The position numbers and the translations under genes were made by a program. A stretch of DNA of 64,000 nucleotides from Oscillospiraceae bacterium (GTDB lineage: Bacteria; Bacillota; Clostridia; Oscillospirales; Oscillospiraceae). The notes below the pieces were generated by a model that had not been told where the DNA came from, searched no databases, and worked only from the letters and a program-made list of their open reading frames with translations. Location: contig JAFROD010000008.1 in NCBI GenBank assembly GCA_017429835.1, forward strand, positions 1 through 64,000, given 5' to 3'. Below, piece after piece: positions 1,308 through 48,388 of the stretch (positions are counted from its first letter, which is position 1; the number at the start of each line of letters is the position of its first letter).

Positions 1308-2228
1308 ATGCTGTCCGTTGTGCTTCCTGCCTATAACGAGCAGGAAATGGTGCCGATCGCGGCGAAGGAAATCAGCCGCGTGTTGACGGCGGCGGGAATA
1401 CCGCATGAATTGATCTTCGTGGACGACGGCTCGAAGGACACGACCTGGGAGAAGATCCGGGCGGCGTCGGCGGAGCTTCCGACGGTGCGCGGCGTGCATT
1501 TTTCCCGCAACTTCGGCAAGGAGGCGGCGATCTTCGCCGGCTTGAGCCAGTCGAAGGGCGACTGCGTCGCGGTGATCGACTGCGACCTGCAGCATCCGCC
1601 GGAAAAGTTAGTGGAGATGTACCGCCTCTGGGAGCAGGGCTACGAGGTCATCGAGGGCGTCAAGTCCGACCGCGGCAAGGAGAGCGTCCTGCACCGCGCG
1701 TTTGCCAAGCTGTTTTACGCGCTCATCAGCCGCGCCACGAAGGTGGACATGTCCCGCGCCTCCGATTTCAAGCTCCTTGACCGCAAGGCGGTCAACGTCA
1801 TTCTGACGATGCGCGAAAAGCGAGCGTTCTTCCGCGCGCTGTCCTCGTGGGTCGGCTTCAAGACCACCGAGGTCTCCTACGAGGTGCGAGAGCGCACGGC
1901 GGGCGAGTCCAAGTGGTCGACCTGGTCGCTCGTCAAATACGCCCTGTCCAACATTACGGCGTTTACCGCCGTGCCGCTGCATATCGTAACGGTGCTCGGC
2001 GTCATTACGCTGATCGTGTCCGTCGTGATGGGCGTGATCGCGCTGGTGCAGAAGATCAGCGGCACCGCGCTCGGCGGCTTCACGACCGTCATCATTCTGC
2101 TGCTGTTCATCGGCAGCCTGATCATGATCAGTCTCGGCATCATCGGTTACTACGTCGGCAATATCTACGAGGAGATCAAGGATCGCCCGCGTTTCATCAT
2201 TGCCGACACCTGCGGAAAAAACGATTAA
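1308..2228 (+). CDS. Family 2 glycosyltransferase, polyprenyl-phosphate type (GtrB/DPM-like)
   Basis: Likely transfers a sugar from a nucleotide donor to a polyprenyl phosphate carrier at the inner face of the membrane. The N-terminal 220 residues form a GT-A domain: LSVVLPAYNE at the start, VDDGSKD, and the metal-binding Asp pair in VIDCDLQHPP. Two hydrophobic helices near residues 225-255 and 262-290 anchor the C-terminus, the usual architecture of GtrB, ArnC and bacterial DPM1-like enzymes. At 306 residues it is the normal length. A purine-rich GGAAGGGGG site precedes the ATG. The DUF937-type gene follows after 21 bases and is probably co-transcribed. The sugar and the final acceptor are unknown; no flippase or teichoic acid gene is adjacent. 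Confidence 0.82.
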   Translation: MLSVVLPAYNEQEMVPIAAKEISRVLTAAGIPHELIFVDDGSKDTTWEKIRAASAELPTVRGVHFSRNFGKEAAIFAGLSQSKGDCVAVIDCDLQHPPEKLVEMYRLWEQGYEVIEGVKSDRGKESVLHRAFAKLFYALISRATKVDMSRASDFKLLDRKAVNVILTMREKRAFFRALSSWVGFKTTEVSYEVRERTAGESKWSTWSLVKYALSNITAFTAVPLHIVTVLGVITLIVSVVMGVIALVQKISGTALGGFTTVIILLLFIGSLIMISLGIIGYYVGNIYEEIKDRPRFIIADTCGKND

Positions 2229-2249
2229 TTACGGTTTAGGAGGTTTACC

Positions 2250-2891
2250 ATGTCTGATCTCAATCTGAATTCGATCATGTCGCTGCTTTCGGGCGACGGA
2301 ACGTCCGCGATCAGCAAGCGCACAAAGGTGAGCAAGAGCGACGTTGCCAACGTGCTGTCTGCCGGCGTGCCGATCCTGCTGACCGGTATGCAGCGCAACG
2401 CCGGCACGCAGTCCGGCGAGGCGTCGCTGCGCGGGGCGCTGAAGGATCACGCTGCGGCGGACGTTTCCGATCCCGGCGCGTTCCTGAAAAACGCCGACCT
2501 CAAGGACGGCAAAAAGATCCTCGGTCACGTGCTCGGCAGCGACCAAAAGGCGATCGTCAAGCGCGTTTCCGACGCCAGCGGCGTCACCAAGGCCAAGACG
2601 ACGTCCATCCTCGCACTGATCGCGCCGCTGCTCCTGTCGCTGCTCGGCGGTCAGCAGAGCCAGCAGGGGAGCGGCTTCAGTCTGCTGGGCATGCTGGGCG
2701 GTCTGCTCGGCGGCGGTCAGCAGGAGCAGGAGGAGCAGGAGCCGGAGCCCCAGACGCAGTCCGGCGGCGGTCTGCTGGACTCGCTCGGCGGACTCGGCGG
2801 TCTTGCCGGTCTCTTCGGCGGCAGTCAGCAGGAGGAAAAGCCGCAGAGCGGCGGTCTGTTCAGCAGTTTCCTCAATCTGTTCCGCGGATAA
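2250..2891 (+). CDS. DUF937-type (YidB-like) protein
   Basis: Function unknown. The N-terminal 120 residues look like the DUF937 helical domain (a pattern of SLLSGDG, VSKSDVANVLSAGVPILLTG and LRGALKDHAA), which is often annotated YidB-like. After about residue 130 the protein turns into a Gly/Leu/Gln-rich tail with repeated LLGGGQQ and GGLGG blocks and a Glu/Gln stretch, probably disordered or an oligomerising segment. There is no signal peptide or clear membrane helix. The ribosome site is GGAGG before the ATG at 2250. It is second in an operon with the glycosyltransferase and is closed by a strong terminator. Confidence 0.65.
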   Translation: MSDLNLNSIMSLLSGDGTSAISKRTKVSKSDVANVLSAGVPILLTGMQRNAGTQSGEASLRGALKDHAAADVSDPGAFLKNADLKDGKKILGHVLGSDQKAIVKRVSDASGVTKAKTTSILALIAPLLLSLLGGQQSQQGSGFSLLGMLGGLLGGGQQEQEEQEPEPQTQSGGGLLDSLGGLGGLAGLFGGSQQEEKPQSGGLFSSFLNLFRG

Positions 2892-2902
2892 GCGGAGATA
2901 CA

Positions 2903-2938
2903 AACACGGGAGGATCGGTCGGATCCTCCCGTGTTTTC
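2903..2938. terminator. Bidirectional intrinsic terminator
   Basis: A perfect 14-bp stem (2903-2916 with 2922-2935) is followed by TTTT on the plus side and has an A/T-rich flank on the minus side. It separates the convergent DUF937-type gene and the GH13 gene. Confidence 0.85.
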
Positions 2939-2948
2939 TGTCTTGCTG

Positions 2949-4634
2949 TTATCGCAGCACGACGCTGGTCATCGAATCAAGGGTGAGCACCGTTCCTTCG
3001 AGCGTGGCGCCACCCTGCCCGACGACGGCGGCAATGGCGTTGAACTGTTCGCTTGTCAACTGAGCCAAATCCACCGATTTGGCGGTGAGCGTGGTGTTGT
3101 GCAGCACGCAGACCGAGCTGCCGTTCCACGTGGCGACGAAGCCGCCCATCTTGGAGTCGGTCACGTTCAGCGCGGTGTAGTCCCCGCGGGCGATCTCCGG
3201 ATTGGCGCTGCGGATCAACAGGAGCTTTTTATAGTAGTTTAAAAGGCTGTTCCCGTCGCCCTTCAGATTTTCCACCGTAGAAGACGTCTGATTGGAGGCG
3301 TCGTAGTCGGCGCCGTCGGGATCGCGCACCGTATCGCCGTCGCCCCAGAGCATGGCAAGCCGACGGTTGGCGTCCGTGCTCGCGCCGCCGCGGGAGCCGC
3401 GCATGCCCAACTCTTCGCCGTAATAGAGGAAGGGCGAGCCGCTGGAGAGGATATAGAGGTTGGCAGCCATCTGCATCTGCCAGCTCGCAACGGTCAGGTA
3501 GCCCGCCGCGCGGTCGGTGTCGTGGTTGGCGATGAAAGGTACGATCATGGCGTCCGGATTGAGTGCGTGGATCTCGTCCAGATAGTGATCCACGTAGGAG
3601 GTGTAGACGTTCACGTTCCCTTTCTTGGCGGTCTCGGCGATGAGGCCGCTCGTCTGCGAAATGGTGAAGTTAAAGCAGTTCATGGCGGGGTAGTACATAT
3701 CGGTCACCCCGTCCCCGTCCCAGACCTCGGCGACGGTGTAGATGTCCGGGTCGAGCTTCTTCAGCTCGGCGACGTACCACTCCCAGAAGTCTGCGGAACG
3801 GGCGTTCTCGCCGAAATAGATGTATTTGGCGGCGTCGAAGCGGAAGCCGTCCACGCCCATATCCAAATAATACCTTGCCACGTCCAGCACTGCCTGCCGC
3901 ACTTCCGGAGCGTCAAAATTCAGCTCGGGCATATCGTCGGAGAAATTGCACTCATACCAGTCGGTCGTGCCGGAGAGCTGCGCGAATCTGCGGCCTGCAG
4001 GAGCGGATTCTCCCTCGTGGTAGTAGCAGTAGAAATCGTACCAGGGGTCGTCGGTGTCTCCCTCCCGATGGGCGCGGGTGAAGTTGCCGAACCACTGGCT
4101 CAGCCGCCCCGTGTGATTGATGGGCAGGTCGAGAATGACCTTGACGTTCCGACTGTGGCAGGCGTCCAGCAGCGCCTGCAGGTCGTCCATCGTGCCGAAC
4201 GCAGGGTCGATCTCGTAATAGTCGTTCACGTCATACTTGTGGTAGGACTGGCTCTTGAAAACGGGCGAGAGCCACAGACCCTCCACGCCAAGGCTCAATC
4301 CGGAGGCGGGATCGCCGTCGTTGAGGTAGTCCATCCGGTTCAGAATGCCCCGCAGATCGCCGACGCCGTCGCCGTCCGAATCGGAGAAGGAACCGACGAA
4401 GATCTCGTAGAACACGCGGTAATTGTCCTCCGACGCCTGCGCGTTTTTGAATTCGTCGCCGGTGAGGATCGCCTCTCCGTCGTCGCTGAGAAAATACCGC
4501 CCGGAGGCGTCCGGTACGGCAGGGTCGGTCTGCTCGGTCGGTGCGGTCGGGGTCTCCGGCTCGGCAGGCTTGTTGCAGGCGCTCATGCCGAGCAGCATGG
4601 TCAGGATCAGAAGCAGCGAAAGCAGTCGTTTCAT
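2949..4634 (-). CDS. Alpha-amylase family (GH13) lipoprotein
   Basis: An exported alpha-glucan hydrolase. The first 20 residues form a lipoprotein signal (MKRLLSLLLIL, lipobox GMSAC with Cys20), so it should be tethered to the outer face of the membrane. The GH13 TIM barrel runs from about residue 55 to 480. It includes the nucleophile region GVDGFRFDAAKY (Asp near 265), the acid/base in TVAEVWDG (Glu near 301) and the FIANHDTDR motif with the third acid (near 369). An all-beta C domain follows. The ATG at 4634 is preferred over the GTG one codon upstream because GGGAGGT then sits 7 bases away. It is divergent from the GH53 operon. Substrate (starch, maltodextrin or another alpha-glucan) is inferred only from the nearby maltose-type importer. 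Confidence 0.88.
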   Translation of the reverse strand: MKRLLSLLLILTMLLGMSACNKPAEPETPTAPTEQTDPAVPDASGRYFLSDDGEAILTGDEFKNAQASEDNYRVFYEIFVGSFSDSDGDGVGDLRGILNRMDYLNDGDPASGLSLGVEGLWLSPVFKSQSYHKYDVNDYYEIDPAFGTMDDLQALLDACHSRNVKVILDLPINHTGRLSQWFGNFTRAHREGDTDDPWYDFYCYYHEGESAPAGRRFAQLSGTTDWYECNFSDDMPELNFDAPEVRQAVLDVARYYLDMGVDGFRFDAAKYIYFGENARSADFWEWYVAELKKLDPDIYTVAEVWDGDGVTDMYYPAMNCFNFTISQTSGLIAETAKKGNVNVYTSYVDHYLDEIHALNPDAMIVPFIANHDTDRAAGYLTVASWQMQMAANLYILSSGSPFLYYGEELGMRGSRGGASTDANRRLAMLWGDGDTVRDPDGADYDASNQTSSTVENLKGDGNSLLNYYKKLLLIRSANPEIARGDYTALNVTDSKMGGFVATWNGSSVCVLHNTTLTAKSVDLAQLTSEQFNAIAAVVGQGGATLEGTVLTLDSMTSVVLR

Positions 4635-25890: not shown

Positions 25891-26598
25891 ATGAAGTACA
25901 CAAAGGAAACCTTTCAATTCAGAACGCTTCCATACGCGGCGAAGCAGTCGTTGGCAGACTACGGAATCAATCCGGACGCGGCAAAACCTGTGTATCTTGA
26001 GGGGTCGACAGCGTACGAGCTTTATCCGATCGGAAGGATCGGATTATACGCAATCGCAGACATCAAAAAACAAAAACTGCTGCTCATTCCTGCACTTTTT
26101 TCACTGCATGAGTTGGTTTTTGAGCACAATTTCGGCGAACAATTTGACGAAAACGGGTTTGCGAAGGCGCTGGGCGCAACGATGGGGTCCGGCAGTGCGC
26201 TCGTCGGCATTCTGGCAACGGAATACTTCATGAGACAAAAGGCGGACTATATTATTAAAAAGCTGGCAATCCGCTTCAAGGATTCCGAAAGCCGCAGACA
26301 ATTGGGAGAAATCGTGTTCGCTGAAAACTACAGGGAAAGAAACGTCGACGTGATGACCGCCTTTGCAAAAGAAAGGCTGGCTTGCCTAAACGAGATCGGA
26401 GATTTCATTGGTTATGAACAGGACAGAATCACTTCGGAACAGGGCTTTTGCCTGCAGATCATGCGCAATTCTAAGGAGAGCTACGATTCCATCAGAGAAC
26501 TGATCAGAGAAGTCCGCATTCAACTCGTTTCCATCGGCGTAAACCCGAAAGACATTGCGCACGATGCAATAGCGGAGTATCATAAACAACTTTCCTGA
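25891..26598 (+). CDS. Hypothetical protein in an AT-richer island
   Basis: Not recognised. A 235-residue protein with no signal peptide. The N-terminal half has short beta segments (AYELYPIGRIGLYAIADIKK, KLLLIPALFSLHELVF). A Gly/Ala/Ser-rich segment near residues 95-110 (GATMGSGSALVGILATEYF) could be a membrane-associated helix. The C-terminal half is helical and charged, ending in HDAIAEYHKQLS. It follows the TerB-like gene in the same direction with a 19-base gap, so the two probably form one transcription unit. Codon use is AT-richer than the surrounding genes, consistent with acquisition by transfer. Confidence 0.6.
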   Translation: MKYTKETFQFRTLPYAAKQSLADYGINPDAAKPVYLEGSTAYELYPIGRIGLYAIADIKKQKLLLIPALFSLHELVFEHNFGEQFDENGFAKALGATMGSGSALVGILATEYFMRQKADYIIKKLAIRFKDSESRRQLGEIVFAENYRERNVDVMTAFAKERLACLNEIGDFIGYEQDRITSEQGFCLQIMRNSKESYDSIRELIREVRIQLVSIGVNPKDIAHDAIAEYHKQLS

Positions 26599-26610
26599 TT
26601 CGAACAAAGC

Positions 26611-26649
26611 ACCGCCGCCCATCGCCGCGATTTGGCGATGGGCGGCGGT
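26611..26649. terminator. GC-rich hairpin between convergent genes
   Basis: A perfect 16-bp stem (26611-26626 with 26634-26649) has a 7-base loop. Neither side has a strong T run; the stem lies 6 bases from the SDR stop codon and 12 from the end of the island gene. Confidence 0.65.
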
Positions 26650-26655
26650 ATTGTC

Positions 26656-27447
26656 TCAGGAAGCGTAGATTTTTCCGACCAGCCACACGAGAAGCCGGTT
26701 GGGAAGCAGGCGGGTCAGAAAGACGAAGACCTTGTATTTCCCACCGAGGGTGCAGACGATCGGCACGCGCTTCTGCAGCGATTTCTTTGCTACGAACGCG
26801 CCGGCTTTCTCAGCCGGAATGCCCGCCTGCTCGTCATGCTCCATGACGGCGACACTGCGGGCGATCCGCCCGCCGTAGGCGTCGTCGCCGGCGGGATCCT
26901 TTTTCCGTGCGGCGGTGAAGCCTGTCGCAATGTCGCCCGGCATGATGCAGCAGACCTCGATGCCATAGGGGCGTACCTCGCTCTGCAGCGCCATGGAATA
27001 GGCGCGGATCGCCGCCTTGGACGCGGAATAATAGGTCTGGAAGGGAATGGCGATCGGTGCGGCGACGGAGCTCATGTTGAGGATCCGCCCGTGTCCTTGC
27101 CGGTGCAGGATCGGCAGGACGGCGCGATTGACGCGCACCATGCCGAAAAAATTGACGTCGAACTGCCGCCGCGCATCTTCGGTGTCGGTATATTCGACCG
27201 CGCCGGAAATGCCGTAACCCGCGTTGTTGATCACGACGTCGATACGACCCTCGCGCTCCATGATCTCCTGCACGGCGTGCTCCACCTGCGTATCGTCGGT
27301 CACGTCGGCGGCTATATGGTATATGCCGTCTGCACCGGTCTCCCTGCGGCTGAGCTCATACACGCGGCAGCCCTTTGCGGCAAGCGCTTTTGCCGTGTGC
27401 AATCCGATCCCGCTTGATCCGCCGGTGAGCAGTATGACCTTTTCCAT
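26656..27447 (-). CDS. Short-chain dehydrogenase/reductase, possible 3-ketosphinganine reductase
   Basis: An NAD(P)-dependent oxidoreductase of the classical SDR family, 263 residues. It has the dinucleotide motif TGGSSGIG at the N-terminus, NNAGYG, Ser126/127, and the YSASK active site (Tyr140, Lys144). The C-terminal 25 residues are hydrophobic (FVFLTRLLPNRLLVWLVGKI), suggesting membrane association as in lipid-metabolic SDRs. It starts 4 bases after the serine-palmitoyltransferase-like gene, so the two are almost certainly co-translated. In known sphingolipid pathways the condensation product, a 3-keto base, is reduced by an SDR, so this gene is a natural candidate for that step. Other SDR substrates cannot be excluded. 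Confidence 0.82.
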   Translation of the reverse strand: MEKVILLTGGSSGIGLHTAKALAAKGCRVYELSRRETGADGIYHIAADVTDDTQVEHAVQEIMEREGRIDVVINNAGYGISGAVEYTDTEDARRQFDVNFFGMVRVNRAVLPILHRQGHGRILNMSSVAAPIAIPFQTYYSASKAAIRAYSMALQSEVRPYGIEVCCIMPGDIATGFTAARKKDPAGDDAYGGRIARSVAVMEHDEQAGIPAEKAGAFVAKKSLQKRVPIVCTLGGKYKVFVFLTRLLPNRLLVWLVGKIYAS

Positions 27448-27451
27448 GACG

Positions 27452-28645
27452 TCACTCCCCGACGTGGTGACTGCGCAGCACGTCCGCGATAATACCGACC
27501 GCTTCCTCGATCAGCGCCTCGGAATGCGTCGCCATCAGGCTCGTGCGCAGCAGACATTCGCCCGGCGCAGTGGCGGGCGGCAGCGTGGAATTGACGTAAA
27601 CGCCGCGGTTATACAGCTCCTTGGCGATGACCAGCGTCGGGAGCGGCTCGTAGGTATAGATGGGAATGATGGGGATACGCTCTCCGTTGGATTCGCGCAT
27701 ACGGATATCGGCGTCCTGCAGCTTGGCGCGCATGAAGACGGCTCTGTTCTGCAGCGTTTCCGGGAGCTCAGGGTGGCTCGCCAGGATCCGCAGCGCCGCC
27801 AGCGCGGCTGCGCAGCTTGCCGGCGTGATCGAGGCGGAGAAGATGAAGGGTCTCGAGCAGTGCTTCACGTAGTCGACGACCTGGCGGGACGCCGCCATGT
27901 AACCGCCGAGCGAAGCGAGGGACTTGGAAAAGGTACCCATGTAGATATCCACTTGATCTTCCAGACCGTAGTAGCTGGCAGTGCCGCGTCCGCCCTCGCC
28001 GATGACGCCGAGACCGTGCGCGTCGTCTACCATGACGCGCGCGCCGTACTGCTTCGCCAGCCGGCAGATCTCCGGCAGATTCGCGATGTCGCCACCCATG
28101 GAGAAAACGCCGTCGGTGACGATCAGACGGCCGGCGTTTTCCGGCACGGACGCGAGCTTCTTCTCCAGATCCTCCATGTCGTTATGGCGGAAGCGGAGCA
28201 TTTTCCCGAAGCTCAGACGGCAGGCGTCGTACAGGCTCGCGTGGTTTTCTCTGTCCATGATGACGTAATCGCCGAGCCCGACGATCGCGCTGATGATGCC
28301 GAGATTGGACTGGTAGCCTGTAGAGAAGGTTACCACGGCTTCTTTGCGCAGAAATTTCGCAAGCTCTTCCTCAAGCTGCAAATGCAGCGTGAGCGTTCCG
28401 TTCAGGAAACGGGAGCCGGAGCAGCCGGAGCCGTATTCCTCAAAGGCGCGGACGCCGGCCTCGATCACTTCGGGGTGCGTCGTCAGCCCGAGGTAGTTGT
28501 TGGAGCCGAGCATGATGCGGCGCTTGCCTTCCATAATGACCTCGGTATCCTGCCGCGATTCGAGCGCGTGGAAGTAAGGATAAATCTTCTTTTCCCGCAC
28601 TTCGTCTACCAGCGACGGCTTATAGCATTTGGCAAAAATATCCAT
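27452..28645 (-). CDS. Alpha-oxoamine synthase, serine palmitoyltransferase-like
   Basis: A PLP-dependent enzyme that condenses an amino acid with an acyl thioester, releasing CO2. The 397-residue protein shows MVDDAHGLGVIGEGGRG (PLP-binding Asp and His) and MGTFSKSLASLGGY with the Schiff-base Lys (about residue 241). YGSGCSGSRFLNGTL, HNDMEDLEKKL and DGVFSMGGDIANLPEI resemble, from memory, the Bacteroides serine palmitoyltransferases more than BioF or Kbl; no alignment was run. The start at 28645 (MDIFAKCYK) follows GGGAG. No biotin or threonine-degradation genes are nearby. An SDR follows after 4 bases. Alternatives are 8-amino-7-oxononanoate synthase and 2-amino-3-ketobutyrate CoA ligase. 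Confidence 0.82.
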   Translation of the reverse strand: MDIFAKCYKPSLVDEVREKKIYPYFHALESRQDTEVIMEGKRRIMLGSNNYLGLTTHPEVIEAGVRAFEEYGSGCSGSRFLNGTLTLHLQLEEELAKFLRKEAVVTFSTGYQSNLGIISAIVGLGDYVIMDRENHASLYDACRLSFGKMLRFRHNDMEDLEKKLASVPENAGRLIVTDGVFSMGGDIANLPEICRLAKQYGARVMVDDAHGLGVIGEGGRGTASYYGLEDQVDIYMGTFSKSLASLGGYMAASRQVVDYVKHCSRPFIFSASITPASCAAALAALRILASHPELPETLQNRAVFMRAKLQDADIRMRESNGERIPIIPIYTYEPLPTLVIAKELYNRGVYVNSTLPPATAPGECLLRTSLMATHSEALIEEAVGIIADVLRSHHVGE

Positions 28646-28686
28646 TGTTTTCTCCCAAAACTCTTTCAAGCATAAAGTATGGCTGC

Positions 28687-28715
28687 ATAATAGCACATCA
28701 AACGGAAAATGACAA
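28687..28715 (-). promoter_or_regulatory. Promoter of the alpha-oxoamine synthase-SDR operon
   Basis: On the minus strand, TTGTCA (28710-28715) and TATTAT (28687-28692) are 17 bases apart, 41 bases before the start. Confidence 0.7.
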
Positions 28716-28755
28716 GATATTTCTTTTCTGCGGCAGGCGGGACGGCGGGGAGGTG

Positions 28756-28784
28756 TTGCGGAATATGGGAAAATGTGGTATATT
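28756..28784 (+). promoter_or_regulatory. Promoter of the DUF362 ferredoxin gene
   Basis: TTGCGG (28756-28761) and TATATT (28779-28784) have a 17-base spacer, 26 bases before the ATG. Confidence 0.6.
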
Positions 28785-28810
28785 GAAAAAAAGAGCGGAG
28801 GTATTCTTTT

Positions 28811-29920
28811 ATGGAAAAGTCAAAAGTATATTTTACCAATATGCGGATCGTGGGCGGTGAATGCCTGACCGATAAGCTGGTACGGCTGTGCAAGACCGCC
28901 GGCATCGGCGAGATCGACTTCAAGGATAAATTCACCGCGATCAAAATGCACTTCGGCGAGGACGGGAATCTGGCGTTTCTGCGCGCGGACTACGCCCGCG
29001 CGATCGTCGAGCTCGTAAAGTCCATGGGCGGCAGACCCTTCGTGACCGACGCCAATACGCTCTACGTCGGCAGCCGCAAGAACGCGCTCGATCATCTGGA
29101 CGTGGCGTTCAAACACGGCTTCAACCCGCTGTCCCTCGGCTGCCATACGATCATTGCCGACGGGCTGAAGGGTACGGACGAGGTGGAGGTACCCGTCGAC
29201 GGCGATTACGTGAAGTCTGCGAAGATCGGCAGAGCGATCATGGACGCGGACGTCGTGATCTCCCTGACCCATTTCAAGGGACATGAGGGAACGGGCTTCG
29301 GCGGCGCGTTGAAAAACCTCGGCATGGGCAGCGGCAGCTTTGACGGCAAGAAGGAAATGCACACCAGCGAGAAGCCGAAAGTGCAGGAGGACGTGTGTGT
29401 CGGGTGCGGCGTCTGCGCGGACAACTGCGCGCACGGCGGCGTTACCGTTGCAGACGGCTGCGCGGTCATCGACCATGCGCGGTGCGTCGGCTGCGGACGG
29501 TGTGTGGGCGTCTGTCCGACCGGCGCAATGATCCCCGCGGCGATCGACGCGCTGGAGCTGCTTTCCCGCAAGGTGGCGGAATACGCCTGCGCCGTATGCA
29601 AGGGTCGCCCGTGCTTCCACGTTTCGCTCCTGATCGACGTGTCGCCCTTCTGCGACTGCTACGGCAGCAACGACGCGCCCGTCATTCCTGACGTGGGCAT
29701 GTTCGCGTCCTTCGATCCCGTCGCGCTCGACAAGGCGTGTGCGGACGCCGCCAACAAGCAGCACGCGCTCGCGGACTCCTTGCTCGGGGAGCTGCACCCG
29801 GCAGAGGGCGCGGATCATTTTCACACGATGCACCCGGATACCAACTGGGAGGCGGGGATCGAGCAGGCGGAAAAGCTCGGGCTCGGCACGGCGGACTATG
29901 AGCTGATCACGATGATCTGA
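28811..29920 (+). CDS. DUF362 protein with two 4Fe-4S clusters
   Basis: A cytoplasmic iron-sulfur protein of unknown reaction, widespread in anaerobes. Residues 1-180 and 250-340 form the DUF362 domain (KMHFGEDGNLAFLRADYARA, VVISLTHFKGHEGTGFGGAL). A bacterial ferredoxin insert at about 195-240 has two C-x2-C-x2-C-x3-C sets: CVGCGVCADNC and CVGCGRCVGVCPTG. The second set is canonical; in the first, the residue after the last Cys is Ala instead of Pro. More Cys pairs (CAVCKGRPC, CDCYG) lie in the C-terminal part and may bind metal. GGAGGT precedes the ATG. The gene is divergent from the alpha-oxoamine synthase operon and upstream of the transglutaminase-SLH gene. Confidence 0.87.
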   Translation: MEKSKVYFTNMRIVGGECLTDKLVRLCKTAGIGEIDFKDKFTAIKMHFGEDGNLAFLRADYARAIVELVKSMGGRPFVTDANTLYVGSRKNALDHLDVAFKHGFNPLSLGCHTIIADGLKGTDEVEVPVDGDYVKSAKIGRAIMDADVVISLTHFKGHEGTGFGGALKNLGMGSGSFDGKKEMHTSEKPKVQEDVCVGCGVCADNCAHGGVTVADGCAVIDHARCVGCGRCVGVCPTGAMIPAAIDALELLSRKVAEYACAVCKGRPCFHVSLLIDVSPFCDCYGSNDAPVIPDVGMFASFDPVALDKACADAANKQHALADSLLGELHPAEGADHFHTMHPDTNWEAGIEQAEKLGLGTADYELITMI

Positions 29921-29968
29921 TCTGCCGCGAATCAGCGGCAAACGAACAGACCGGAAGGAGAAACGACG

Positions 29969-32080
29969 ATGAAACAACGAATCCTGTCTCTGTTCCTTGC
30001 GCTTGCGCTTTCGATCGGGCTGTTGTCTGCCGCCGCTGGAACGGCTGGCGCGGCAGACTCCGCCGCAGACTGGGCGAACGAGATCATCATTCTGGATCAG
30101 ATCGAAGCGGATCTTATCACGGCGATCCGCGCCGGAAAATCGAGTCTCGATCTGCAGAGCTATCGTCTGAACAGAAAGACGATTGAGCTGAACGAGATCA
30201 AATACTATTCACCCTACGTCAGCAACGGGATCGACGTCAACGGCTGGTGGCTCGCGGACGGCACCTACCTGAAGCTCGAAATCACCTACCCGAAGGACAG
30301 GAATCTGAGCGAGATCAACGCGTACTTTGACCTGCTGGACAGAAAAGTTGCCGAGATCGACGCCATGCTTGCCGCAGTGCCGGACGACGCGGATAAGGTG
30401 CTTGCGCTCCACGATTATCTGGCATACGTCTGCGAGTATGACTATGAGAATCTGCTTGCGCAGACGGTGCCGCCCGAGTCCTTTAGTACAGCGGGCGTGT
30501 TGATCAATCGCCGCGCGGTCTGTCAGGGCTTCACCTACGCGTTCATGTATTTTATGAATCGCGCGGGCGTTGAGTGCCATCGCGTGATCAGCCGCCCCAT
30601 GGATCATGCGTGGAACGTCGTCAGGCTTGGAAACAGCTACTACCACGTCGACGTCACGTGGGACGATCCCGTGCCGGACGACCTCGGCATGGTGCGGCAC
30701 AGGTTCCTTCTGCTCAGCGATACTGCCGTAGCGGGCAAGCGCGCCATCGGTGACAATCACCACCACGATTGGGAAACGCTGCCCGTGACGTGCAGCGATA
30801 CGCAATATGATAACGCATACTGGTACGGCGTCGAAAGCCCGATCCTTTCTTCGGGCAGTGACAGATACTACATCAAAGACGGCGCGATTGTCAAAAACGA
30901 AAGCAAACGCGGCGGAGAGACCGCGCTGCTTTCACTCGGCGAGTGGCCGGTGTGGGGCAGCGGCAGTGCGTTCTGGGTCGGCTCATTCAGCGGGCTTTAC
31001 CTTTATAACGGAAAGCTCTACTACAACACCGCGACGGAACTGCGCCGCCTTGATCTCGAGACGATGGCGGACGAGACGGTCTATGCGCCGGAAACGACCG
31101 ACGGTTATCTTTACGGCAGCGCGGTGATCGACGGCGAGATGATCTACGAGATCAAGAAGAGCCCGAACGAAACGGGCGTGCGCCGCTCCGTTCCGTTTCA
31201 TGAGCTGACGGGCGAGCACGTCCACAGCTATACGGCGACCGTGACTGCGCCGACCTGCACGGAGCAGGGCTTTACGACCTATACCTGCGAATGCGGCGAC
31301 AGTTACGTCGATCGCTACGTTGCCGCGTTGGGACACGACGTCGTTACAGACGCTGCCGTCCCGGCGACCTGTACCGCGACCGGTCTGAGTGCAGGCGAGC
31401 ATTGCACGCGCTGCGATTATATGGTCGCGCAGAAGGTCGTCCCCATGCTCGCGCACAGCTACAAGGACGGCGTGTGTACGGCCTGCGGCGCGAAGGATCC
31501 GAACTACAAGCCCGTGGAGCAGACGAAATTCAACGACGTGAAAGAAAATGCGTGGTATTATGACGCGGTCAATTACGCCGTGCGGAACGGCTTGATGAAC
31601 GGCGTCGGCGGCGGTAGATTCGCGCCCAACGAGCCCATGACGAGAGCCATGCTCGTGACCGTCCTGTGGCGCTACGAGGGCGAGCCGAAGGAGGGAAAAA
31701 ATACCTTCACGGACGTACCGGACGGACAGTGGTACACGCAGGCGGTCGCGTGGGCGGCGCACAACGGCATCGTCGGCGGCGTCGGCAGCGGCAAGTTCGA
31801 TCCGAGCGGCAACATCACGCGCGAGCAGATGGCGGCGATCCTGTACCGCTACGCGGATAAGAAGGGCTTTGATACGTCAAAGCGCGGCGACCCGAGCGGT
31901 TTCCCCGACGCAGGAAAGGTCAGCTCCTGGGCGAAGGACGCGATCGCATGGGCGGTCGCCGAGAAGATCATCGGCGGCTCCGACGGCAAGCTCCTCCCGC
32001 AGGGCAACGCCACCCGCGCCCAGGTCTCGACCATTCTCATGCGGTTTATCGAGAACTTCGTAAAGACGCAGGCTAAATAA
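29969..32080 (+). CDS. Secreted transglutaminase-like protein with three SLH domains
   Basis: A 703-residue wall-anchored protein. A Sec signal covers residues 1-28. A transglutaminase-like domain (about 110-260) keeps the Cys-His-Asp triad: RAVCQGFTYAF (Cys near 184), RPMDHAWNVV (His near 212) and YHVDVTWDDP (Asp near 227). Such domains act as transglutaminases or proteases. A beta-propeller-like stretch follows (300-410), then a Cys-rich linker with repeated C-x2-C pairs (CTEQGFTTYTCECG, HCTRCDYM, VCTACGAKDPNY). Three SLH domains from about 519 to the end attach it to the wall. The RBS is GGAAGGAG. The last 185 residues closely match the end of the 45.1-kb protein. Confidence 0.87.
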   Translation: MKQRILSLFLALALSIGLLSAAAGTAGAADSAADWANEIIILDQIEADLITAIRAGKSSLDLQSYRLNRKTIELNEIKYYSPYVSNGIDVNGWWLADGTYLKLEITYPKDRNLSEINAYFDLLDRKVAEIDAMLAAVPDDADKVLALHDYLAYVCEYDYENLLAQTVPPESFSTAGVLINRRAVCQGFTYAFMYFMNRAGVECHRVISRPMDHAWNVVRLGNSYYHVDVTWDDPVPDDLGMVRHRFLLLSDTAVAGKRAIGDNHHHDWETLPVTCSDTQYDNAYWYGVESPILSSGSDRYYIKDGAIVKNESKRGGETALLSLGEWPVWGSGSAFWVGSFSGLYLYNGKLYYNTATELRRLDLETMADETVYAPETTDGYLYGSAVIDGEMIYEIKKSPNETGVRRSVPFHELTGEHVHSYTATVTAPTCTEQGFTTYTCECGDSYVDRYVAALGHDVVTDAAVPATCTATGLSAGEHCTRCDYMVAQKVVPMLAHSYKDGVCTACGAKDPNYKPVEQTKFNDVKENAWYYDAVNYAVRNGLMNGVGGGRFAPNEPMTRAMLVTVLWRYEGEPKEGKNTFTDVPDGQWYTQAVAWAAHNGIVGGVGSGKFDPSGNITREQMAAILYRYADKKGFDTSKRGDPSGFPDAGKVSSWAKDAIAWAVAEKIIGGSDGKLLPQGNATRAQVSTILMRFIENFVKTQAK

Positions 32081-45062: not shown

Positions 45063-45094
45063 AAACAGGACTGCAAACGCAGTCCTGTTTTTTC
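45063..45094 (+). terminator. Terminator of rplJ-rplL
   Basis: A 12-bp stem (45063-45074 with 45079-45090) with an AAAC loop and TTTTTT tail. Confidence 0.9.
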
Positions 45095-45124
45095 TTGACG
45101 ATTTGCGGTGTCTGCAGGTATAAT
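45095..45124 (+). promoter_or_regulatory. Promoter of the metallophosphatase-SLH gene
   Basis: TTGACG (45095-45100) and TATAAT (45119-45124) have an 18-base spacer, directly after the rplL terminator. Confidence 0.7.
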
Positions 45125-45144: not shown

Positions 45145-47682
45145 GTGAAAAAGACGGCGCTGCTTCTTGTAGTATCAATGCTCTTCTCTCTGATATCCGT
45201 TCCTGCGTCTGCGCAGAGCGCGCAGCCTTCCGCGGCGGAGTATACTCTGCCGATCTTTGAAACCGCCGACCTGCACGGCTGTCTTGTGGATACCGGCTTT
45301 GAGGGGGAAGAAAACTATCAGTACCGTTTTGCCCGCATCATAGACGCAGTGGAAGACCGACGAAGTTACAGCGACGCGTGCGCGCTGCTGCTGGACGGCG
45401 GCGATATCTATTCCGGCAACGTGATCGAATCGCAGCAGGATGGAAGACCCGTCAGCGCGGCGTACGCGCAGGCGCGCTACGACGCGGTCGCCCTCGGCGG
45501 GCATGCGTTCGACGCCGGATTGGAGCATGCCGTCGACGCCGACGGCACGATGCCGGATTACGCGCTGAACGGGCTGTCCGGCGTAAACGCGATCCCCGTC
45601 CTGTGCAGCAACCTCTATTCTGTCAAGGACGGCGCGCGGGTCGCGCGGACGAAGGACTACGTACTTCTCGAAAAGACCGCCGTCGCTGCGGACGGCACGG
45701 AAAAAGCGGTCAAGATCGCGGTGATCGGCTGGCTGCATAACATGAACGGCTCGATCCTGCCGGATAGAATCAAGGATTACTACGTGAACGACTCCCTCGC
45801 GCCGGTCGACGCGCTGGCGCGGCAATTAAAAGCACAGGGAGCGGACGCCGTGGTGCTGCTGGCGCATCGCGACGCGAAAAAGACGGCGGCTGCGCTGCCG
45901 GGCGGCACGGCGGTCGACCTCGTCTGCGGCGCGGATTCCCACTACGCGCAGACCGGCACGGAACAGACGGCGTATATCCAGCCCTCCGCAAAGGCGAGGG
46001 GTTACGCTTACGCGGAGCTGCGGTTTTCTGCGGGCGCGGTCAGCGTCGCGTCCATGCGCACGGTCTCCGTGACCGGAAACGCCGCCATGCTCCACGATAC
46101 GACGGGCAACGCCGGCAATCTGCACCCCGCCGTGATGACGGTCTCCCGTCTTGCGGTGGAGGGTGTGCGCCCGCTGCTCGAAGCCAAGCTCGGAACGATC
46201 ACCGCCGCGATCACGACGGATTCCGTCGTCGGCAGCTCCATGGCGTCCACGGGCGGCAACTGGATGACCGATCTGGCGAATCGCGCCTGCGGCACGCAGG
46301 TGTCGTTCACCAATTCCGGCGGCATCGGGACGCAGCTTCTTCTGACGAACGGCGTCCATACCGTGACTAAGGCGGATATCTATAACCTTGCGCCGTATTC
46401 CAACCGCCTGTACGTCTATGCCCTGCGCTATCCCGAGCTGCTGGGCGTGCTCAACTGGGCGGTCAGCCATACGAGCATGAATTTGCGCATGTCGGGCATC
46501 GACTGCTACTATTCGGATTCCAAGGTGACCGCGCTGGTGGAAAACGGCGCGTGCATTTACAAGGACGGCGCGTGGGCGAAAGGCTACGAGAGCAAATACG
46601 TGCGAGTGTCCTGCAACGAGTTCGTCGCGACGTATGCCTACGGGCCGTTTGCGGGTTTTACCGCGACGGACAACTCCAGGATCGACAACGAGAGCTTTAT
46701 CGCGGTGCTGGAGGCGGAGAGCAGAGCGAACGGCGGTCAGCTTTTCGTCGACAAGACCCCGCATATTCTGAAATCGACCTATTCGGGCGAGCTGGCGGAG
46801 ATCGCGTGTCCGCACGAGCACGCCTGCCCGGAGCGGAAAGACGCGACCTGCACGGACGCCGGTTTTGTTAAAATGATCTGCGACGATTGCGGGGAAGTGA
46901 TCTCCGAGACGGTTCTTCCCGCGCTCGGGCATGATCTGGTTTTCCATGAGGAAAAGACCGCAACCTGCACGGAAGCCGGCTGGAACGCCTATCAGACTTG
47001 CAGGCGCTGCGACTTCACGACCTATGCGGGGATTCCGGCGTTAGGTCACAGCTATCAGAACGGCGCCTGCACGCGCTGCGGCGCAAACGACCCGAGCTAT
47101 ATCGCGTCTGCCGGTTTCAGCGACGTTTCCAAAAGCGCGTGGTACTACGACGCGGTGAATTACGCGGCAGCGCGCGGACTGATGAACGGCGTGGGAAACG
47201 GGCGTTTCGCGCCGGACGGGACGATGACGCGTGCAATGCTCGTGACCGTGCTGTGGCGATACGCTGGCAGTCCGGCGGCGGGCGAAAACGGCTTTACGGA
47301 CGTGCCGGACGGCGCGTGGTACGCGGCGGCGGTCGCGTGGGCGGCAGAGAACGGGATCGTCAACGGCGTCGGCGCGGGGAAGTTCAACCCGAACGGCGAT
47401 ATCACCCGCGAGCAGATGGCGGCGATCCTCTTCCGCTTTGCGCAGAGGAATGATCTCAATACCGGCGCGCACGGCGATCTGAGCGGCTTCCCCGACCGGG
47501 CAAAGGTCAGCTCCTACGCTGTCGATGCGATCGTGTGGGCAGTCGGCGCAGGACTCCTCCGCGGCGCGGACGGAAAGCTCCTGCCGCAGGGCAGCGCGAC
47601 CCGCGCGCAGCTCGCGGCGATCCTCATGCGGTTTATCGAGAACATCGCGAAGACAGAGATCGTTATTGTACCAAACAGTTGA
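45145..47682 (+). CDS. 5'-nucleotidase/UshA-like metallophosphoesterase with three SLH domains
   Basis: An 845-residue secreted wall protein. Translation likely starts at GTG 45145 (AGGGGG site 8 bases before), giving a Sec signal (KKTALLLVVSMLFSL) ending near ASAQS. Residues 38-270 resemble the metallophosphatase domain: ETADLHGCL (metal His/Asp), LLDGGDIYSGN, then ALGGHAFDAG, where the family has GNHEFD, and CGADSHY, where it has GHSH. A 5'-nucleotidase C-terminal domain follows (about 310-540), with MASTGGNWMTDLA and FTNSGGIG. Then come a Cys-rich linker (CTEAGWNAYQTCRRCDF, HSYQNGACTRCGANDPSY) and three SLH domains from about residue 655. Missing metal ligands make nucleotidase activity doubtful. 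The C-terminal 185 residues match the 30-kb transglutaminase protein. Confidence 0.82.
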   Translation: MKKTALLLVVSMLFSLISVPASAQSAQPSAAEYTLPIFETADLHGCLVDTGFEGEENYQYRFARIIDAVEDRRSYSDACALLLDGGDIYSGNVIESQQDGRPVSAAYAQARYDAVALGGHAFDAGLEHAVDADGTMPDYALNGLSGVNAIPVLCSNLYSVKDGARVARTKDYVLLEKTAVAADGTEKAVKIAVIGWLHNMNGSILPDRIKDYYVNDSLAPVDALARQLKAQGADAVVLLAHRDAKKTAAALPGGTAVDLVCGADSHYAQTGTEQTAYIQPSAKARGYAYAELRFSAGAVSVASMRTVSVTGNAAMLHDTTGNAGNLHPAVMTVSRLAVEGVRPLLEAKLGTITAAITTDSVVGSSMASTGGNWMTDLANRACGTQVSFTNSGGIGTQLLLTNGVHTVTKADIYNLAPYSNRLYVYALRYPELLGVLNWAVSHTSMNLRMSGIDCYYSDSKVTALVENGACIYKDGAWAKGYESKYVRVSCNEFVATYAYGPFAGFTATDNSRIDNESFIAVLEAESRANGGQLFVDKTPHILKSTYSGELAEIACPHEHACPERKDATCTDAGFVKMICDDCGEVISETVLPALGHDLVFHEEKTATCTEAGWNAYQTCRRCDFTTYAGIPALGHSYQNGACTRCGANDPSYIASAGFSDVSKSAWYYDAVNYAAARGLMNGVGNGRFAPDGTMTRAMLVTVLWRYAGSPAAGENGFTDVPDGAWYAAAVAWAAENGIVNGVGAGKFNPNGDITREQMAAILFRFAQRNDLNTGAHGDLSGFPDRAKVSSYAVDAIVWAVGAGLLRGADGKLLPQGSATRAQLAAILMRFIENIAKTEIVIVPNS

Positions 47683-47737: not shown

Positions 47738-48337
47738 TTATTCCCGCATGGCGGCGATGACCTCGTCCATCGTGCGGCAGACGCGGTTGTCGACCAGACC
47801 GCCGACAAAATTATTCAGGCGGAAGGTCTCGTTATAGTAGTTGCGCACGTCGCTCTTGTAGAGCACCAGCTTCTTGCCCAGTCCGTAGCCCAGACCGATC
47901 TCGGCGGCAGTGCCGGAGTCGATCTCGATGCCGTTGCAGTTGACCACCAGAAAGTCCGCCAGGCGGATCGCCTTGAGATCCATGTAGAAGCACGCCGCCT
48001 TGACGAGCACGGTGCTTTCGTTTGTGATGACGACCTCCTGCGGCAGGAAGGTGGTATAGCCGAGGGCGCGCAGACGGTCGGAATTGCACTGATTCGTGTA
48101 GCGGTCGCCCTCGTTAAAGAGGGGACCTGCCATATAGACGGCGGGTTTGCCGTCCTCATAGGGGTACAGGTATTTCGTCAGCGCCTCGACGGTCTTCGGC
48201 TCGGTGATCTCCTCTAACCCATCGCGGAACGGGAAACCCTCCGTGCCGTACTTTTCGGCGAAGACGGGGTAACACGTGCCGTCCTTTTCATAGACCGCGA
48301 ACAGCGGATCGACGTCGTTTCCAAGATAGAATTTCAT
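47738..48337 (-). CDS. Nucleoside 2-deoxyribosyltransferase-like protein
   Basis: A 199-residue cytoplasmic protein. VYMAGPLFNEGDRYTN is the start of the nucleoside 2-deoxyribosyltransferase fold, and EIDSGTAAEIGLGYGLGKKL carries the Asp and Glu expected at the active site. Family members move deoxyribose between bases or hydrolyse nucleotides. The N-terminal 70 residues (MKFYLGNDVDPLFAVYEKDG) are an addition of unknown purpose. The start at 48337 follows GGGAG. It lies downstream of the zinc-motif membrane protein gene but after a terminator. Confidence 0.75.
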   Translation of the reverse strand: MKFYLGNDVDPLFAVYEKDGTCYPVFAEKYGTEGFPFRDGLEEITEPKTVEALTKYLYPYEDGKPAVYMAGPLFNEGDRYTNQCNSDRLRALGYTTFLPQEVVITNESTVLVKAACFYMDLKAIRLADFLVVNCNGIEIDSGTAAEIGLGYGLGKKLVLYKSDVRNYYNETFRLNNFVGGLVDNRVCRTMDEVIAAMRE

Positions 48338-48350
48338 AATTGCTCCCTTC

Positions 48351-48388
48351 AAAAAAGTCATTCCGCAAAAACTGCGGAATGACTTTTT
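48351..48388 (-). terminator. Terminator of the zinc-motif membrane protein gene
   Basis: On the minus strand, a 16-bp stem (48373-48388 with 48352-48367) is followed by a TTTTTT run that belongs partly to the arm. Confidence 0.8.

Follow-up and report, generated by a model that had tools for sequence, protein, structure and literature searches.

A putative surface-bound 5'-nucleotidase-fold protein with an altered active site, a candidate pseudoenzyme of an Oscillospiraceae bacterium

What becomes of a two-metal phosphatase when residues at the centre of its active site are replaced and the protein around them is kept is the question raised by one gene of the window, i.e., the whole stretch of 64,000 nucleotides analysed here (Oscillospiraceae bacterium, assembly GCA_017429835.1, contig JAFROD010000008.1, positions 1 to 64,000). 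The gene codes for an 845-residue protein, called here the window protein, with a 5'-nucleotidase fold of the UshA type and three S-layer homology (SLH) domains. Automated sequence annotation would probably label it a 5'-nucleotidase. Judged from its residues, it has most likely ceased to act as a normal one, and we give roughly an even chance to its being a surface pseudoenzyme—a protein retained after its classical activity was lost or strongly reduced. The initial annotation of the locus offered a fair list of options: a binding protein, a different metal site, or action on another bond.

By descent, as its sequence and predicted structure indicate, the window protein belongs to the secreted 5'-nucleotidase (UshA) superfamily. 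Pfam finds in it 5_nucleotid_C (PF02872, E = 8.4e-12, 45.9 bits against a cut-off of 23.6) and three SLH domains (7.5e-37), in the order two-domain 5'-nucleotidase fold, Cys-rich spacer, three SLH domains. The frame is intact, which bears out the initial view of a complete UshA-type protein with SLH domains; a fragment or a pseudogene is excluded by this full frame and by the low ratio of nonsynonymous to synonymous substitution rates (dN/dS) given below. The Metallophos profile PF00149 has no match in the window protein at E ≤ 1 nor in its orthologs at E ≤ 0.01, and matches a canonical sister protein, locus L038, at 1.3e-06. NCBIfam models of the CpdB/UshA/NadN type match the N-terminal part (best 8.9e-21, residues 33–500), far under their curated cut-offs; the nadN model, for instance, scores 38.8 bits against a cut-off of 436.

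The residues were numbered after E. coli K-12 UshA in an alignment comprising UshA, six family relatives, and the trio, i.e., the orthologs of the window genome (G000) and of genomes G001 and G003. The roles assigned to the UshA residues follow the UshA structures and the two sources named next. PMC11708047 gives the ligand set of the binuclear family as two Asp, three His, and one Asn; in the AlphaFold model of Efn1 described there, the phosphate of adenosine monophosphate (AMP) is contacted by the Asn, by the His next to it, and by an Arg, and the metal bound by the Asn is also that of the first His of GHxH. In CD73, according to PMC8677862, the phosphate is coordinated by Arg354 and Arg395.

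In the window protein Asn116 is replaced by Gly (G119) and His252 by Asp (D264), so that the ligand set is incomplete, with its other members kept; alignment with UshA thus upholds the initial claim that two canonical metal-site residues are missing. Both replacements occur in all three orthologs, the second in the motif GADSH (GADSHY in the window protein). The Arg of the C domain that contacts phosphate (UshA R410, CD73 R395) is likewise absent from the trio, having become Gly, Gly, and Ala. The initial annotation listed the Asn-to-Gly change without singling it out and missed this shared loss of Arg410. Of the three residues reported to contact phosphate in Efn1, the window protein is thus without two, and taken as a two-metal enzyme it lacks, by alignment, two of the defining features tested. 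As the Asn and the first His of GHxH share a metal, the loss is lopsided: one metal site is complete and the other consists of D87, H241, and D264. The His117–Asp120 catalytic dyad (H120, D123) is present in all three orthologs, and the His217 equivalent is conserved throughout the trio. Phe429, the aromatic base-stacking position, is Tyr in the trio, with Asn431 kept, and the position of UshA Gln254 is His (H266), as in the six family relatives. Glu118 has become Ala (A121) in the window species only.

Full-length orthologs were found in 3 of 17 genomes of the genus, those of G001 and G003 being 88% and 82% identical to the window protein; nine further genomes gave weak partial matches only, to other nucleotidase domains. 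As both orthologs read GGHEFD and GADSH, Gly and Asp are features of the clade and Ala121 is new in the window species. Of the changes which the initial annotation proposed to look for in close relatives, Gly and Asp are therefore shared and Glu-to-Ala is not, and the latter is rejected as a defining change. A search of 400 family genomes gave five further near-full-length relatives (in G130, G134, G385, G293, and G342), and an additional locus search gave L038 (the same frame as that of G130) and L039; a weak 63-residue match, L040, was excluded from the family. All six distinct relatives are canonical (N116, H252, R410, F429). At Asn116, His252, and Arg410 the seven comparison rows (the six relatives and UshA) uniformly have N, H, and R, and the trio is altered. 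These rows have 43 invariant columns, of which the trio retains 34; another 7 differ in every one of the three orthologs, and 2 are mixed. The fully changed columns comprise 4 of 12 active-site columns versus 3 of 31 others.

A 39-row tree places the trio in one clade (100/100), sister to L038 (95/89), which is 51% identical. The stem of the trio measures 0.59 changes per column versus 0.29 and 0.24 for the tips of the two nearest relatives. The root serves for drawing only. Several long rows carry a warning of uncertainty, and neither the trio nor its nearest relatives belong to the long rows named. Since six canonical relatives surround the trio clade in the tree, its changes are derived. 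Beyond the family, an order-level protein search (E ≤ 1e-15) gave matches in 3 of 394 genomes, the own one included, a plasmid search returned four distant records only, and a viral-contig search with L038 matched one stretch, which is no relative.

How unusual the changes are was judged against 99 other distinct UshA-like domain hits, partial and overlapping rows included. Position 116 is Asn in all 87 domains having a residue there, of which 28 came from a viral-contig search with two patterns, one being GNHEFD, and it is Asn in 59 of 59 domains from loci not selected by that motif; the 45 viral-contig relatives, chosen partly by GNHEFD, carry little information on how often Asn is lost. Position 252 is His in 86 of 87 domains, the sole exception being the viral-contig relative L128, which reads GGDSHT, keeps GNHEFD, and has NadN (3ztv) as its best PDB match. 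L128 itself (2222–3994) is a NadN-like 5'-nucleotidase on a contig of a viral collection. Among the 56 domains that combine Asp120 with a letter at position 410, 54 have Arg there, which makes its loss unusual for that sub-type. The DNA pattern GGH[DE]F[DN], which cannot match the GGHAFD of the window protein, occurs at 61 places in 55 of 398 phylum genomes, a set drawn without G001 and G003, and no UshA-like protein was met among the 30 loci read. The pattern GADSHYA was found in 8 of 400 family genomes, and among the eight loci read the only UshA-like ones are the three of the trio. Within the comparison domains, then, nothing found matches the Gly that alignment places at position 116.

The altered domains are under purifying selection. 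Among the three orthologs dN/dS, calculated by NG86, is 0.146–0.174 for the metallophosphatase region and 0.106–0.163 for the C domain, similar to the neighbouring nucleoside 2-deoxyribosyltransferase-like (NDT-like) and ATP-binding cassette (ABC) transporter genes (0.07–0.19), above rplA and rplJ (0.01–0.06), and below the SLH region (0.25–0.57). In a crude neutral simulation each of the seven kept site residues survives in all three lineages with a probability of about 0.09, and the seven were never jointly retained in 20,000 runs (0/20,000). Their retention is a matter of constraint, which may be structural. Loss of site residues from a protein under purifying selection is a mark of pseudoenzymes, and by sequence both elements are found here.

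The fold is predicted to be intact. An AlphaFold2 model based on a 15-row alignment (mean predicted local distance difference test, pLDDT, 85.1; predicted template modelling score, pTM, 0.84), which replaced a weak 5-row model (pLDDT 68.9), superposes on E. coli 5'-nucleotidase 1ho5 with VIA Z 31.5 (3.1 Å, 464 residues), and its N domain on YfkN 3gve with Z 31.0 (2.8 Å, 291 residues); Foldseek matches the model to 1oi8 at 1.6e-35. With the predicted fold intact, the changes would not belong to a breakdown of the protein as a whole. Good matches to the model are likewise given by SoxB and NadN (Z 28), so the fold alone does not single out an activity.

The favoured course of events is as follows. 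The active site would have been remodelled along the branch that leads to a clade known here from a single genus. The altered metal site, made up of D87, H241, and D264 and devoid of the Asn, would have little or no affinity for its metal, and the phosphate would be left unclamped, since the contacts of Asn116 and Arg410 are gone; a weak or absent second metal and an unclamped phosphate would together cause the classical two-metal activity to be lost or strongly reduced. The SLH domains would bind a secondary wall polymer, and the cleft between the two domains, retaining one full metal site, the His–Asp dyad, and the aromatic and Asn base-contact positions, may hold a ligand (a nucleoside, nucleotide, or other) instead of turning it over fast. 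Classical activity can be supplied elsewhere, because the own genome has canonical UshA-like and CpdB-like paralogs: PF02872 has five matches there at E ≤ 0.001, the one in the window and four on three other contigs, comprising the UshA-like L001/L002 and L003, canonical at every key position covered, and the CpdB-like L004. L001/L002 (G000:C59, about 25997–31033) are one frame with two tandem canonical UshA-type domains.

More tentatively, this putatively wall-bound protein may be a natural, selected half-site variant of the UshA family that now serves as a surface receptor. Alternatively, it may be a hydrolase whose first metal site is complete and whose second contains an Asp, and whose ligand is unusual and not a nucleotide. 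No counterpart of such a half-site variant was found in literature searches on pseudoenzymes of the metallophosphatase and nucleotidase kinds, and no bacterial 5'-nucleotidase pseudoenzyme in that on metallophosphatase, metallophosphoesterase, and nucleotidase pseudoenzymes.

Several observations weigh against a pseudoenzyme. The excess of losses among the active-site columns is modest (p about 0.08 by our hypergeometric arithmetic). The full first metal site, the His–Asp dyad, and His217, all conserved in the trio, go beyond the need of an inert scaffold. The His-to-Asp change occurs in NadN, so taken alone it is no proof of inactivity, a point on which the initial annotation needs correction; by analogy with NadN, an enzyme may well have Asp at position 252. 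Of the 15 GNHEFN-type (CpdB-like) domains in which position 410 is covered, 14 have no Arg there; its loss is thus not rare in itself and can mean a change of substrate, not inactivity. Tyr at position 429 is common, being found in 13 of 82 domains with a letter there.

A lesser but substantial probability goes to a retooled, active hydrolase, in which Asp264 would replace the His ligand as in NadN, water would fill the place of the Asn, and another metal or a substrate needing no Arg clamp would be used. Such an enzyme would account for the first-site ligands, the dyad, and His217 being kept in all three orthologs against neutral expectation, for the low dN/dS of the altered domain, and for the Asp that L128 combines with an intact GNHEFD; the GNHEFN-type domains devoid of Arg fit it too. 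It has to face, however, that Asn116 is at once a metal ligand and a phosphate contact, present in every other domain with a letter at that position, that two phosphate contacts were lost together, and that the GGH[DE]F[DN] loci read gave no UshA-like protein. As far as the residues can tell, retention of one metal site and of the dyad speaks for the retooled hydrolase, and loss of the Asn and the Arg for the pseudoenzyme.

An ordinary 5'-nucleotidase that tolerates the substitutions and works much like UshA is unlikely. Its predicted two-domain fold is intact and nearer to the closed form of CD73 (4h2i, 4.0 Å over 461 residues) than to the open one (4h2f, 11.3 Å over 457), and NadN does with Asp in place of His, but Asn116, Arg410, and His252 are lost together here, and Asn116 is missing in no other domain examined. 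Still less probable is a gene decaying under relaxed selection and heading for loss, to which the patchy presence in the genus (some of the 17 genomes being incomplete), the Ala121 private to the window species, and the long stem branch would point; against it stand the full-length frames in all three genomes, their common place between rplL and the NDT-like gene, and dN/dS of 0.11–0.17 in the altered domains. A sequencing or assembly artefact has a negligible probability, for although the own assembly has draft status, with 66 contigs, and G001 and G003 come from uncultured sources, the recurrence of Gly119 and Asp264 in three separate assemblies refutes it for these residues.

For a pseudoenzyme and a retooled hydrolase alike the place of action is probably the cell surface, to which the SLH domains would bind the protein. 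A profile search detects SLH domains in both orthologs too, and the own genome codes for a CsaB pyruvyl transferase, which serves SLH anchoring (238.1 bits against a cut-off of 213.1). The coordinates of the features are collected in the table. The Cys-rich spacer has matches in further proteins, both in the own genome and in sister genomes.

Table. Features of the altered 5'-nucleotidase gene and its product (positions in the window; residues of the 845-residue protein, UshA equivalents in brackets)
Feature	Coordinates	Strand	Basis
Complete gene of the window protein (845 aa; altered 5'-nucleotidase fold, three SLH domains)	45145..47682	+	ORF (open reading frame), Pfam
Promoter-like TTGACG-18-TATAAT upstream of the gene	45095..45124	+	11/12 matches
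Signal-peptide-like N-terminus (KK, hydrophobic stretch, ASA)	45145..45222	+	read by eye from sequence
D42, H44 (D41, H43), metal ligands, kept	45268..45276	+	alignment
D87 (D84), bridging metal ligand, kept	45403..45405	+	alignment
G119-H120-A121-F122-D123 (N116-H117-E118-F119-D120)	45499..45513	+	alignment
H241 (H217), metal ligand, kept	45865..45867	+	alignment
A263-D264-S265-H266 (G251-H252-S253-Q254)	45931..45942	+	alignment
5_nucleotid_C match (PF02872)	46237..46521	+	E 1.4e-11 in genome-wide search
G395 (R410), phosphate-binding Arg lost	46327..46329	+	alignment; role from PMC8677862, PMC11708047
Y418-S419-N420 (F429-G430-N431)	46396..46404	+	alignment
Cys-rich spacer with CxxC repeats	46807..47100	+	read from sequence; Pfam assigns nothing
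Three SLH domains, outer limits approximate	47116..47652	+	Pfam; best at residues 661–700 of 848-residue frame

The gene lies directly 3' of rplK-rplA-rplJ-rplL. Its start is placed at GTG 45145 and not at the alternative 45136, which would give a frame of 848 residues, because the ortholog in G003 has an ATG start at the equivalent position. The promoter-like sequence occurs once in the stretch, against 0.8 sites expected in shuffles, and is therefore weakly supported; a hairpin 3' of rplL (about 45073–45103) looks terminator-like by eye and has no entry in the scan that gave the promoter-like sequence. The NDT-like gene (47738–48361, minus strand; PF05014, 9.1e-17) is convergent with the gene of the window protein. 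In 3/3 genomes of the trio the altered gene is flanked by rplL and the NDT-like gene, and the ABC transporter gene comes after these; the window and G001 have two more genes in the neighbourhood, one for a small membrane protein and one of the MATE type, and in G003 the ABC gene comes directly after the NDT-like gene, then a peptidase-like ORF. The convergence of the NDT-like gene on the altered nucleotidase in all three genomes hints at a possible link through nucleoside metabolism, but the two lie on opposite strands. Within the genus, the content of the slot that separates rplL from the NDT-like gene is variable. In G004 (L152) it is a gap of about 75 bases, and in G007 (L150) it holds small genes, by eye coding for a membrane protein, a zinc-ribbon protein, and a regulator; in G012 (L151) a different SLH protein with similar Cys repeats stands beside the NDT-like gene, and the contig end cuts off the rplL side.

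The series formed by the canonical sister, the three altered orthologs, and the canonical paralogs of the own genome offers a test of how a two-metal phosphatase loses or changes its function with its surface fold kept, and could help to ask whether proteins of the nucleotidase fold serve such bacteria for sensing nucleotides outside the cell or as components of the wall.

Among known systems, the UshA family (PF00149 with PF02872; E. coli UshA, CD73, Thermus 2z1a) shares with the window protein the two-domain fold, the domain order, and the fold of the C domain, as well as the first metal site, the His–Asp dyad, and His217; the window protein differs in the replacement of Asn116, His252, and Arg410, in the unreported PF00149, and in the presence of SLH domains. 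The CpdB/YfkN 2',3'-cyclic phosphodiesterases/3'-nucleotidases (3jyf, 3gve) are alike in the N domain and in the usual lack of Arg at 410, but their GNHEFN-type domains keep Asn116 and His252, whereas the trio reads GGHxFD and GADSH, so that only the Arg part of their signature (GNHEFN, no Arg at 410) agrees. Natural loss of a GHxH-type ligand is known from another family, in MPPED2, a class III metallophosphodiesterase with a His-to-Gly change in its metal site. NadN, the NAD nucleotidase of Haemophilus influenzae (3ztv/3zu0), has the same fold and likewise Asp at the first His of GHSH, then SHY (GDSHY in 3ztv versus GADSHY in the window protein); it differs in keeping GNHEFD and GGVR, the trio being without both the Asn and the C-domain Arg. 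NadN is tabulated as a hydrolase of AMP, NAD, and UDP-sugars with Zn2+ (PMC8475336) and described as degrading NAD, nicotinamide mononucleotide, and AMP (PMC8038981, PMC10694654); one group's purified His-tagged NadN is reported to have had no activity on para-nitrophenyl phosphate (PMC10694654). For an enzyme fold kept at a Gram-positive envelope without activity and in support of the wall, the likeness is to the deacetylase-fold proteins BA0330 and BA0331 of B. anthracis (PMC4505593), which differ from the window protein in being lipoproteins of unrelated fold.

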